From NCBI GenBank assembly GCA_905235625.1, contig CAJOLX010000003.1, positions 1-64,000 on the forward strand: 64,000 bases of DNA, read 5' to 3'. Below, piece by piece: positions 53,348 to 62,384 of the stretch; the first letter of the stretch is position 1, and every line of letters starts with the position of its first letter. The translations under genes and the position numbers were made by a program. The DNA is from an uncultured Clostridia bacterium (lineage in GTDB: Bacteria; Bacillota; Clostridia; Oscillospirales; Acutalibacteraceae). The notes under the pieces are model-generated. The model was not told where the DNA came from, searched no databases, and saw only the letters and a program-made list of their open reading frames with translations.

Positions 53348-54190
53348 TTGAGTAAAAAGCGAAAAATTGTAAGCCTTACAATTTTCTTTGCAATTGTAGC
53401 TTTGCTGATTATAGGAATTGTCTTAACAAACGGCAAAGCTGCCAATGAAGAAACGATAAAAGAAGTTATGCGAGACGCCGTGCTGCACGAAAATAATAAA
53501 ATTAACTTATTCGGCGTTATCGAAGTAAATCCCGGGCTTATATCCGCTTTTATTGTTTCCGGCGCGCTGATAATATTCGCGCTGATAGTAAGGATTTTCG
53601 TAATACCGAAATTTACTCTTGTGCCGGGTAAATTTCAATACGGGCTTGAAAAAACAGTGGGGCTTTTCAGCAGTATATCGGAAGAAAACAGCCCGCATAA
53701 ATCTTATTTCATCGGCGGATATATTTTCGTGGCGGGCATATATATTTTCATAAGCACTCTGTTTGAGCTGCTCGGGCTTCAGGCTATAACGACGACCGGC
53801 TCACACGTTATTTTGCCCGCTCCCCTTTCCGATATTAACGGCGCGATCGCAATGGGCGTTTTGTCTTACGGCGTAATTCTTTTCGGCGGTCTTATTAACG
53901 CAGGACCTAAAGGGATGCTGAACGCTTTAAAAGATTTTTCATTGCCCATTTCAATGAGCTTCAGATTATTCGGAGCTCTGCTTTCCGGCGCGCTCGTAAC
54001 CGAGCTCGTTTATTACTATCAGTTAACGAGCATACTCTTACCCATAATCGTGGGCATACTTTTCACGCTGCTTCACGCTTTTATTCAGGCATACGTTCTG
54101 ATAACTCTCGTTTCGATATTCTACGGTGAATCGAGCGAAAGAAAACCCAAAAAGCAAAAAACAAAGAAAAGAGGAAAAATCAATGAATAG
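53348..54190 (+). CDS. atpB: F-type ATP synthase subunit a
   Basis: Multi-TM; PISMSFRLFGALLSGALVTELVYYY; LLHAFIQAYVLITLVSIFYGE; TTG start after AAAGGAG. Confidence 0.92.
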   Translation: MSKKRKIVSLTIFFAIVALLIIGIVLTNGKAANEETIKEVMRDAVLHENNKINLFGVIEVNPGLISAFIVSGALIIFALIVRIFVIPKFTLVPGKFQYGLEKTVGLFSSISEENSPHKSYFIGGYIFVAGIYIFISTLFELLGLQAITTTGSHVILPAPLSDINGAIAMGVLSYGVILFGGLINAGPKGMLNALKDFSLPISMSFRLFGALLSGALVTELVYYYQLTSILLPIIVGILFTLLHAFIQAYVLITLVSIFYGESSERKPKKQKTKKRGKINE

Positions 54191-54566
54191 AAAAATCAAA
54201 ATTATTTTTTCGGTTATCTCGCTTATCATAATTCTTTCGGCGCTCGCAGTGCCCGCATTTGCGGCAAATGAGAGCAAAGAAGCATCGGAAACCGTAAGCG
54301 CCGAAGCGGCTGAACAGGCCGAAGAGCAAAACGATTCTTCCGTTACAAAATCAAAGGCTTTCGCTGCGGCGGTTCTTGTTGCGCTCGCAAGCAGCGCAGG
54401 CGCAATAGGCATGAGCATAGCCGTTAAATCCGCTTCAAACGGTATATCGCGCCAGCCCGAAGCTTCCGGCGACATCAGAACGAACACCATGCTCGGCCTC
54501 GTCTTTATTGAGACGGCAATCATTTACGCTCTTATAGTTGCAATTCTCATTATTTTCGTGCTTTGA
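54183..54566 (+). CDS. atpE: F-type ATP synthase subunit c with N-terminal signal-peptide-like extension
   Basis: MNRKIKIIFSVISLIIILSALAVPAFAANESKEASETVSAEAAEQAEEQ... then c-ring hairpin AAVLVALASSAGAIGMSIAVKSASNGISRQPEASGDIRTNTMLGLVFIETAIIYALIVAILIIFVL. Confidence 0.88.
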   Translation: MNRKIKIIFSVISLIIILSALAVPAFAANESKEASETVSAEAAEQAEEQNDSSVTKSKAFAAAVLVALASSAGAIGMSIAVKSASNGISRQPEASGDIRTNTMLGLVFIETAIIYALIVAILIIFVL

Positions 54567-54581
54567 TAAGGAGAATACCTT

Positions 54582-55073
54582 ATGCCTTTGAATATTGATT
54601 TACAGCAAGTGCTTCTTCACATGCTGAACTTCACCATCCTGTTTTTTGCTCTGTATTTCCTTTTGTATAAACCGATTAAAAAATTCAACAGCAAAAGAGC
54701 GGATTATTTTAAAGAAATGGAAGCAAAATCGGGCGGAATGCTTGAAGAAGCCAATAAAATAAAGGATGAATATGAGGCTAAAATGGCAAAAGCGGACGAA
54801 GAAATCGAAAAGATGAAAGAATCTGCCGCGGACGAAGCCTCTAAAAAATCCGAAAAAATAATCACCAACGCAAAACAGGAAGCAAATTCCATTATACTCC
54901 AGGCAAAAACGAGGGCTAACAAAGAAAAGAAAGCGATACTGTCTTCCGCCAACAAGGAAATACGCGACCTTGCGGAGCAAGCCGCCGAAAAAATCGTTAT
55001 GGAGGGCACTCTCGAATCTTACGAGAGCTTTCTTGACTCTGTTGACATACCCGAATCGGAAGAGAATGAATAA
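54582..55073 (+). CDS. atpF: F-type ATP synthase subunit b
   Basis: INIDLQQ-like start, single TM then long charged helix; located between subunit c and alpha genes. Confidence 0.9.
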   Translation: MPLNIDLQQVLLHMLNFTILFFALYFLLYKPIKKFNSKRADYFKEMEAKSGGMLEEANKIKDEYEAKMAKADEEIEKMKESAADEASKKSEKIITNAKQEANSIILQAKTRANKEKKAILSSANKEIRDLAEQAAEKIVMEGTLESYESFLDSVDIPESEENE

Positions 55074-55075
55074 GC

Positions 55076-56795
55076 ATGGAAACTACTGAAAACAAAGCAA
55101 TTTTATATGCGGATAAAATGCCCTCTCCCGAGCAAGCCGAGCGTTTTGTTAAGTTCTTAAAGAGCAAACACAACGTCGACGGCTATGATTTTGTTGAAGA
55201 CTCCGGCATTAAAGACGGCTTTAAGCTGATTGTCGGCGACGAAATTTACGACTGGACTAACGAGGGCAGATTAAGGCAGCTTAAAAATTTCATCAGCTCT
55301 CTTAAAAGCGAAGAAAACTACGCCCCTCTGCTGAAGGATGCGGTTATCAATTGGAAACCCGACGCCGTAAAAGAAGAAATCGGCACTGTCACGAAGGTCG
55401 GCGACGATATAGCTACCGTCAGCGGCCTTGAAAGCGCCGAATACGGCGAAATACTCCTCTTTGAAAACGGAGTCAAAGGCCTTGTGCAAGACCTCAGAGA
55501 AAATGAAATCGGATGCATTCTTTTTGACCAGGAGCAAATCGTTACCCAAGGGTGCAGAGTTTCAAGAACCAATAAGGCGGCAGGTATGCCCGTGGGCGAG
55601 GAATTTATCGGCAGAGTAATCGACTCTCTCGGCAATCCTTTGGATAACGGCCCGGCTATTAAGACCGAAACTTATTACCCTATTGAGCATCACGCTCCGA
55701 GCATTATTGACAGACAGCCCGTTAACTCCCCTCTTGAAACGGGAATTCTCGCAATAGACGCGATGTTCCCAATAGGCAGAGGGCAGAGAGAGCTTATAAT
55801 CGGCGACAGGCAGACGGGCAAAACAGCGATAGCCCTTGACACGATTATAAATCAAAACGGCAAAGGCGTTATCTGCATTTACGTCGCTATAGGTCAAAAG
55901 GCAAGCTCGGTTGCAAACATCGTGAATACGCTCGATAAATTCGGCGCCATGAGTTACACCACTGTCATTGCCTCAACCGCTTCGGACCCCGCTCCCCTGC
56001 AATACATAGCCCCTTATTCCGGCTGCAGCCTTGCGGAGTATTTTATGAATCTCGGCCACGACGTGCTGATAATCTATGACGATTTGTCAAAGCACGCCGT
56101 AGCTTACAGAACTCTCAGCCTGCTTCTTGAAAGAACGCCGGGCAGAGAGGCTTATCCGGGCGACATATTTTATCTTCACTCAAGGCTTTTGGAAAGGTCC
56201 GCTCACATGTCAATCGGCAAGGGCGGCGGCAGCATAACCGCGCTGCCCATAGTTGAAACGCAGTCCGGCGACGTTTCCGCTTACATACCGACCAACGTAA
56301 TTTCAATTACGGACGGTCAGATTTATCTTGAAAGCGACCTGTTTTACAGCGGTCAGAGGCCTGCCGTAAACGTCGGTCTTTCGGTTTCGAGAGTCGGCGG
56401 CAGCGCACAGGCTAAATCAGTTAAGAAATCAAGCGGCAATTTAAGGATAGACCTTGCTCAGTACAGAGAAATGGCGGCGTTCAATCAGTTCGCCGGCAGC
56501 CTTGACGAATCGACAAAAAGGCAGCTCGATTACGGCAAGATACTTATGAAAATTCTTAACCAGAAGCAGTATCATCCGTATCCGAGGCACAGCATAGTGA
56601 TAATCCTTGTTTCGGCTCTCGCTCACTGCTATGACGGCATTGACCCTCAAAACGTGCCTGCAATTATAGATGAGGTTTGCGAAGAGGCGGAGAAGGAATT
56701 ATCCTCCGTTTGCAGAGCTATTGACGAAGACGGAGAGCTCACTGCCGAAATGAAAAAGCAGATAATCGAAACAGCCGCCTCAGTGGTGAACAGAA

Positions 56796-56803
<8 letters not shown>
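55076..56803 (+). CDS. atpA: F-type ATP synthase subunit alpha with about 75-aa N-terminal extension
   Basis: EEIGTVTKVGDDIATVSGLESAEYGEILLF; GDRQTGKTAIALDTIINQ; ISITDGQIYLESDLFYSGQRPAVNVGLSVSRVGGSAQ; 575 aa. Confidence 0.95.
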
Positions 56804-59035
<2,232 letters not shown>

Positions 59036-60037: not shown

Positions 60038-62384
60038 TCAGGCCTTCAGAATTACGCCGATTTGCTTAAGATTATTGAGGATTTTATCTATCATGACCTG
60101 CACTTCGCTCATTTCAAGAGTTCTCTGCATGTCAACGAAATTAAATCTTACGGTAATGCTCTTTATGCCGAGCTTTTCAAACGTGTCAATAACCTTGTAG
60201 CTTTCGAGCTCTTTAAAGCCTTCTTTAAGCCAGCATTGCTCAATATCGGAGAATCTTACCGATTCGGGCACTATGAGCGAAAGGTCATAATAAATGGACT
60301 GCATTTCGCTCTTCTCAACAAACTCTATGGGCTGAGCATTCACCGAGTTAAAGAGAGTCATATCAATCTCAAAGCAAACTGCCGACGCCGTTTTGTCAAA
60401 CTTCAATTTATTTGAAGGATGAAGGGCGCAGACTGTTCCGAAACGCACTCCGCCGGCGCTTATTGACGCGGTGTTTTTGGGGTGCTGCCAGGAATGCTCG
60501 GGCTCAATCTTCGCGAACTCCACCTTGCGGTGCTTAACGTCATAGACTATGGTGTTGATTATATCGAGAGCGGAGTAATAAAGCTCCTTCTCGCTGCCGG
60601 TCTTATCGTAAAGCACAACACCGAGCCTCTTTCTTTCGTTGCACCTGCCGTTTTCGTCCGTGCCGTCAACTACCCTGCCGATTTCAAAAACGCCGTATTT
60701 ATCGGCAAAATCCTTGTTTTCGTTTGCTATTACGAGCAAAGTGGGAAGTATGGAATTTCTGAGAACGCCGTTATCGGAATTTTCAATGTTTAATACCTTA
60801 ACGTTATCCTCAACCTCAATGCCGAGCTTTTTGAGCTTTCTGCCGTCGTTCCAGATATAGGAATTTACTTCGTGAAGAGAATATTTCTTAACGAGTATAT
60901 CCTTAATCTCCTCGTCCTCCGACTTGGAATAATCGGTGGGAACCGGCTTTAAAGGCATTTTGGTGGTTGTGATTTTAAAGTTATCATAGCCGTAAATTCT
61001 GGTGATTTCTTCTATTATGTCGGCTTTAATGGTAACGTCCTTCGTTCTTCTCCATGAAGGCACTTTAACCTCATAATTGCCGTTTGATGAAGTTACGTCA
61101 AAGCCGAGAGAAGTAAGAGTGTTGACTATTCTCTCGTCGCTTATCTCTATGCCGGTGTATTTGTCAACATAAGCTTTGTCAAATGAGAGAGAAATTTCGG
61201 GGTACTTTTTAATATACTGATCGTTGAGATTTGACGCAACCTTCGCGCCGGGGTCAATTGAGGTGACAAGCTCAACAAATCTGCCCACTGCGTCGGAGCA
61301 AAGCTCGGGGTCAAGCATTTTTTCATATCTTGCGGAAGCGTCCGTTCTGTGAGCGAGGCGCTGAGAAGATTTTCTGACGCTGATGCCGTCAAAGCACGCG
61401 GATTCAAGCACTACGCTGCCCGTATCCTCAATAATTTCGGATTCAAGGCCGCCCATAATGCCCGCAATCGCGACGGGAGTTTCGCGGTTATAGATGAGAA
61501 GAGTGTCTTCGTCAATATCTCTCTCGTTGCCGTCAAGAGTTGTGAATTTGATTTTTTCTTTCGGCGTGTCAATAACGATAGAGTCAATCATATTCGCGTT
61601 AAACGCGTGAGTGGGCTGACCAATCTCGAGCATAATGTAATTTGTTACGTCGGCAAGCAGATTTATTCCTCTCATGCCGCAGTAATAAAGCCTTATCTGC
61701 ATCCAGAGCGGGCTTGTATTAACGGTTATGCCGTCCATCTTGAGCGCTTCGTATCTGTAAACAAGGTACGGGCACGGTGTAATCGCCCGAATATGAAGTG
61801 TCGCCGAGCTTGAGAGGCTTGAGCTCTCTGCCGGTGAGCGCCGCGAATTCTCTCGCGATGCCGTAATGGCCCCAAAGGTCGGGCCTGTTGGTGAGAGATT
61901 TGTTGTCAACCTCAAATATAATGTCTTCTATAGGATAAATATCCTTAATATCGGTGCCGCACTCTGCGTCCGTAAACAGCTCAATAATGCCGGAATGGTC
62001 GTCGCTTATGCCGAGCTCTTTTGCAGAACAGCACATACCCTCGGATTCATAACCCGCCAGCATAACGGTGTTGATTTCGCCTGCAGGCACTCTTGCGGGA
62101 GCGGCGGCAAGAGCAACCTTCATGCCCTCTCTAACGTTGGGAGCGCCGCAAACGATGTTGTAAACTTTGGAGCCGCCGTCAACTTTGAGAAGGTGCAGCT
62201 TTTTGGAATCCGGATGTTTTTCAACCGAAAGAATTTTGCCTACGATAACGTTTTCAACGTCTTTGCCTTTTTCATAAATTTCTTCAACCTCGGCAGTGGC
62301 AAGAGTGAACTTGTTGATTAAGTCTTTAATGTCAAAGCCGCTGAGGTCAACGTAATCTTTAATCCAGTTAATTGAAACAAGCAT
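60038..62384 (-). CDS. pheT: Phenylalanyl-tRNA synthetase beta subunit, interrupted by an apparent frameshift near 61755-61800
   Basis: N-terminal part ORF 61719..62384 (MLVSINWIKDYVDL...); C-terminal part in another frame within ORF 60038..61915 (CPYLVYRYEALKMDGITVNTSPLWMQIRLYYCGMRGINLLADVTNYIMLEIGQPTHAF...). Confidence 0.92.

Follow-up and report, generated by a model that had tools for sequence, protein, structure and literature searches.

A delta-subunit domain fused to the alpha subunit in a Clostridia F-type ATP synthase, with possible consequences for the number of peripheral stalks

F-type ATP synthases are presumed always to have a single peripheral stalk and a single a subunit per enzyme, a constraint that, together with the c-ring, sets the H+/ATP ratio. 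In the canonical enzyme, the N-terminal domain (NTD) of the delta subunit occupies the threefold axis of alpha3beta3, which restricts the enzyme to a single stalk, and the C-terminal domain (CTD) binds b2 (PMC12229609). This limit is lifted by removing the NTD and fusing the CTD to alpha: Ueno et al. (2025) deleted the delta NTD of the Bacillus PS3 enzyme, joined the CTD to alpha and removed the epsilon C-terminus, and obtained particles with 0, 1, 2 or 3 stalks in proportions of 15, 51, 26 and 8%, with an a subunit at every stalk and an H+/ATP ratio of 5.8 instead of 3.0 (PMC12229609). Natural delta-alpha fusions are already known as a kind, as the same authors point in their Discussion to Acidaminococcus fermentans, UniProt G4Q3K6 and A0A1I2C5T3, as natural CTD-alpha fusions in which the NTD is missing (PMC12229609). 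In the literature searched, which covers few subscription journals and preprints, no experiments on a natural alpha-delta fusion came to light. A different natural departure from the canonical design is suggested by PDB entries 9itj-9itu of Chloroflexus aurantiacus, six of which contain 12 delta chains per 18 alpha chains (two per three), as for an F-type enzyme that has two stalks and more than a single delta; no paper on this enzyme was found in the literature searched.

The stretch of DNA analysed here (the window, 64,000 nucleotides from an uncultured Clostridia bacterium) contains an ATP synthase operon in the order a-c-b-alpha-gamma-beta-epsilon, and all seven products match their respective families (Table 1). 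Alpha, beta and gamma score above curated cut-offs and a, b, c and epsilon above the Pfam cut-offs, placing the complex among the F-type ATP synthases. What departs from this type is the delta/OSCP subunit, which is not a separate protein with N- and C-terminal domains; only the CTD is present, inside AtpA. Two bases separate the end of atpF at 55073 from the start of atpA at 55076, and atpH is therefore absent from its usual place, as an initial annotation of the window had noted from the same coordinates. That annotation also saw no trace of the helical NTD of delta, and the absence of atpH and of the NTD holds in a search of the whole genome (2.06 Mb in a draft of 93 contigs, 100% complete by estimate). 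PF00213 (delta/OSCP) gave zero matches in this genome and matched 9 of 14 control genomes. A more sensitive profile of the delta CTD gave a single match, the AtpA extension itself, and the delta NTD, a six-helix domain that binds the alpha N-termini, was found neither in AtpA nor in the genome.

Table 1. Locations of the ATP synthase features in the window and of selected layouts at related loci
Feature	Location	Strand	Remarks
atpB, subunit a	53348..54190	+	PF00119 E 3.7e-14; start codon uncertain
atpE, subunit c	54183..54566	+	PF00137 E 6.2e-13, residues 79-142
atpF, subunit b, 163 aa	54582..55073	+	PF00430 E 1.2e-16
atpA, delta(CTD)-alpha fusion, 575 aa	55076..56803	+	ATG start
delta/OSCP C-terminal domain, AtpA residues 6-73	55091..55294	+	
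N-terminal helix of alpha proper, AtpA residues 83-92 (APLLKDAVIN)	55322..55351	+	predicted helix H83-92
atpG, gamma	56796..57638	+	PF00231 E 4.9e-75
atpD, beta	57635..59035	+	TIGR01039 796.8 bits, above cut-off
atpC, epsilon, 86 aa	59036..59296	+	PF02823, residues 3-82 only
Stand-alone delta CTD genes	L077 3508-3723; L123 2652-2867; L124 4675-4890; L126 2750-2962		
Tandem, two delta CTDs on alpha	L113 2041-4065		
b'-delta(CTD)-alpha triple fusion	L072 2907-5114		also L073, L074, L075, L076, L121, L127, L128, L129, L130

The alpha family model TIGR00962 aligns to residues 79-567 of AtpA, leaving about 78 extra residues at the N-terminus, close to the 75 or so first reported. As a single sequence, the extension aligns from residue 17 to 71 with positions 114-170 of the 172 in PF00213 (E 0.014), and its score of 15.9 bits is below the cut-off of 22.3. 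The aligned extensions of relatives all match OSCP (13 of 13, best 1e-10). A profile-profile comparison relates the extension family to eight complete deltas from the same order with 98.5% probability (E 2.1e-15), and the extension profile aligns with the last 70 residues of these deltas. Searched against the PDB, this profile matches residues 108-175 of 6n2y_I, the Bacillus PS3 delta (8e-10), and residues 5-73 of the engineered chain 9jc1_I (3e-9). The predicted fold of the extension is E-H-E-E-E-H (pLDDT 79), and delta/OSCP chains take the first 33 places among its matches and almost every place up to the 45th. A D..GF..D pattern is invariant in the extension family and shared with delta. 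Compared with its counterpart L001 in the rumen metagenome-assembled genome Tb.RUG.222, dN is 0.22 in the extension and 0.19 in the alpha core, with synonymous sites near saturation, indicating similar constraint on the two parts. The extension thus agrees in sequence and fold with delta residues ~105-177, PF00213 alone remaining under its cut-off. The resemblance to the delta CTD proposed in the initial annotation is upheld by the profile and structural comparisons, which show that the first ~75 residues of AtpA are homologous to the delta/OSCP CTD.

Among solved chains, the best structural match to the whole of AtpA is 9jc1_I (PDB 9jc1; 560 columns, 46% identity), the fusion subunit of the engineered deltaDeltaN-alpha FoF1. 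In both enzymes the NTD is absent, the C-terminus of the CTD is joined through a short linker to the N-terminus of alpha, and epsilon has no C-terminal domain; the two fusions are 580 and 575 residues long and in nearly the same register. AtpA of the window is thus a deltaDeltaN-alpha protein by its domain arrangement. The window enzyme differs in being a natural one, whose a, b and extended c subunits are its own. By its published description, the A. fermentans fusion has the same CTD on alpha and lacks the NTD. Mycobacterial AtpFH is also a delta domain fused to an operon neighbour and a fold match to the window's domain (e.g. 7jg5 chain d). In that fusion an NTD-bearing delta is joined to b, not to alpha, and is present in one copy per enzyme; AtpF of the window is a separate protein, and a fusion of the mycobacterial type was rejected. 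Operons of the N-ATPase (alternate F1F0) have no delta gene either, but their gene order differs, and AtpA scores 586.7 bits, below the 750.5 cut-off of TIGR03324 yet above that of ordinary atpA.

AtpB retains RLFG, the motif that carries the essential Arg, and, like AtpF, which is full length including its C-terminal tail, is encoded by a single copy in the genome. Epsilon is the beta-sandwich alone, without the inhibitory C-terminal helices. Alpha proper retains its N-terminal helix, which follows the delta domain and precedes the beta-barrel and has the consensus IIPLLKE in relatives. The atpE frame as listed begins with a GTG at 54126, the ATG at 54183 being the likelier start. Its product has an acidic, signal-peptide-like N-terminal extension. 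Almost every delta(CTD)-alpha operon in the window's clade encodes one, and subunit c is there 111-186 residues long versus 70-100 in most other layouts. The ion-binding Glu lies within FIETAIIY; the site keeps E-T....Y, with Met at the position that is Gln in Na+ rings, and the coupling ion may be Na+ or H+. In L165 and L166, two loci of family f51, the c subunits have the full Na+-type motif (Q, ES, Y).

The genome has one alpha gene, alongside one a gene and one b gene. No ATG, GTG or TTG codon occurs in atpA between residues 61 and 110, so alpha cannot be translated without the delta domain, and a separate alpha from an internal start was ruled out. Unless the domain is cleaved post-translationally, each F1 should therefore contain three delta CTDs, in line with the earlier proposal of a delta piece on all three alphas.

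We surveyed 396 genomes of the window's order and 399 genomes of the same phylum outside it. By profile search, a delta CTD is present in 227 of the 396. Among the 150 matches listed, 83 are in separate deltas; by frame length, 38 are in frames of 570-660 residues, 9 in frames of 660-710, 13 in frames of 730-790 and 6 in frames of 70-80. The loci read fall into six layouts: a separate full delta, a stand-alone CTD, delta(CTD)-alpha, full delta-alpha, a tandem, and b'-delta(CTD)-alpha. The stand-alone CTDs are proteins of 71-72 residues without the NTD, encoded between atpF and atpA (e.g. L077, L123, L124). On one contig of genome G247 there are two near-identical operons of this layout, one with atpA split over two frames. 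Full delta-alpha fusions keep most of the NTD, the OSCP match starting from position 24 (L115, L116, L119; L170 is assigned by domain position). The tandem would bring six delta CTDs to each enzyme, provided that none is lost. Proteins of the b'-delta(CTD)-alpha layout, of 736-767 residues and from at least four families, have at their start a b-type membrane helix (PF00430 close to its cut-off, E 2e-6 to 7e-6), which should tie every alpha to the membrane. Upstream in these operons is a shorter free b gene, of 139-141 residues wherever read versus at least 158 elsewhere, as expected if each alpha brings its own stalk; we infer that the tail of free b, which should bind delta, is gone because b' is covalently attached. 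Outside the order, fusions are rare; those among the matches listed are family f51 (L165-L168) and two members of family f27. The survey finds the window's fusion in many families, and the delta-alpha fusion is common across this one order of Clostridia. In the literature searched we found no account of its spread across the order or of its separate origins, and none of the full delta-alpha intermediates, of CTDs that stand alone, of the tandem or of b'-delta(CTD)-alpha.

On a tree of the alpha core with 67 rows, the window's clade has support of 99/97. Its earliest branch and a small sister group have full delta-alpha fusions, which suggests that the fusion of delta to alpha probably came first and that loss of the NTD followed, at least twice (in the main clade and in L131). 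The b'-delta(CTD)-alpha proteins form a single clade (100/100). L079 and f51 are further separate joins on the tree. A single origin of all alpha fusions was rejected by the AU test with a p-value of 6e-42, which is optimistic since the groups were named after the first tree. The sample records four or more independent fusions of delta with alpha. The fusion in f51 was joined independently, by tree and AU test, and this family may or may not be the Acidaminococcus group. Families do not track the alpha-core tree cleanly, and some genomes have two operons, G375 with both fusion types and G027 with a separate delta and a triple fusion; transfer of the operon between genomes is therefore likely.

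Based on these observations, we regard the window's enzyme as a genuine F-type ATP synthase in which, as read from its genes, delta is reduced to the stalk-binding CTD and fused in frame to the N-terminus of alpha. The rearranged peripheral stalk first suspected gains support from the absence of atpH elsewhere and from the delta-like sequence and predicted fold of the extension. By our preferred reading, to which we give a probability of roughly 55%, the enzyme would assemble with two or three b2 stalks, and every stalk would bring an a subunit to the c-ring. Each delta domain would fold atop its own alpha and hold a b2 stalk at the C-termini of its b subunits in the usual way, the covalent link standing in for the grip of the NTD on the alpha N-termini. 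Three equivalent docking sites would result from the absence of the NTD, which in the canonical enzyme occupies the axis, and we expect them here because AtpA is the natural equivalent of the engineered 9jc1_I subunit. In the full-length model of AtpA the core is predicted poorly (mean pLDDT 68), and we therefore place the domain on alpha according to the homologous solved chain. Extra stalks would move more ions per ATP and so permit ATP synthesis at low ion-motive force.

The serious rival is that the fusion only secures attachment after loss of the NTD. One delta domain would then bind b2 and two would stay empty, either because a and b are limiting or because sterics permit only one stalk. 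We consider this reading plausible, though somewhat less likely than the first. It draws on the single a and b genes of the window, where three stalks need enough of both, and on the engineered PS3 enzyme, in which a single stalk was still seen on half of the particles and most had at most one (PMC12229609). The NTD-bearing fusions at the base of the clade point the same way: only one NTD fits the axis, so fusion by itself does not require several stalks. Against a single stalk stand the repeated losses of the NTD, at least two within the clade and others in the lineages with a stand-alone CTD or a fused b', and the triple-fusion genes imply three membrane-anchored alphas. It seems to us an even bet that the one-stalk rule has been broken several times in nature, by per-alpha stalk sockets in the window's lineage and by a gene-forced three-stalk, possibly three-a, enzyme in the b'-delta(CTD)-alpha lineage.

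A further reading, in which the extension is a leftover or has some different role and an unrecognised protein acts as delta in trans, would accord with its sub-threshold score against PF00213. We consider this very unlikely, as its constraint equals that of the core, the D..GF..D pattern is held in common with delta, and dozens of genomes have the same arrangement without a second delta. An assembly or annotation artefact, in which atpH was deleted and joined to atpA in the metagenome assembly, might be entertained for a draft genome with an apparently frameshifted pheT downstream, but is ruled out for practical purposes by the same fusion in independent assemblies, including L001 (AtpA 74% identity) and members of many families. 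The pheT gene, on the minus strand at 60038-62384, is read as two overlapping frames (61719-62384 and 60038-61915), probably through a frameshift or an assembly error.

If natural fusions behave as the engineered one does, a multi-stalk enzyme would give gut and rumen anaerobes a second route, besides larger c-rings, to ATP at very low ion-motive force, and the loci found provide many natural enzymes and intermediates on which the idea can be tested. The gene content of the window's genome fits such a setting. It encodes a complete Rnf cluster (L136 4043-8706, with RnfC identified by profile) and the beta subunit of a Na+-translocating decarboxylase. Both are pumps that work at modest ion-motive force, and their genes point to a fermenter in which that force is modest. 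The genome also encodes subunit I of a V-type ATPase, and the F-type enzyme is therefore not its sole rotary ATPase.
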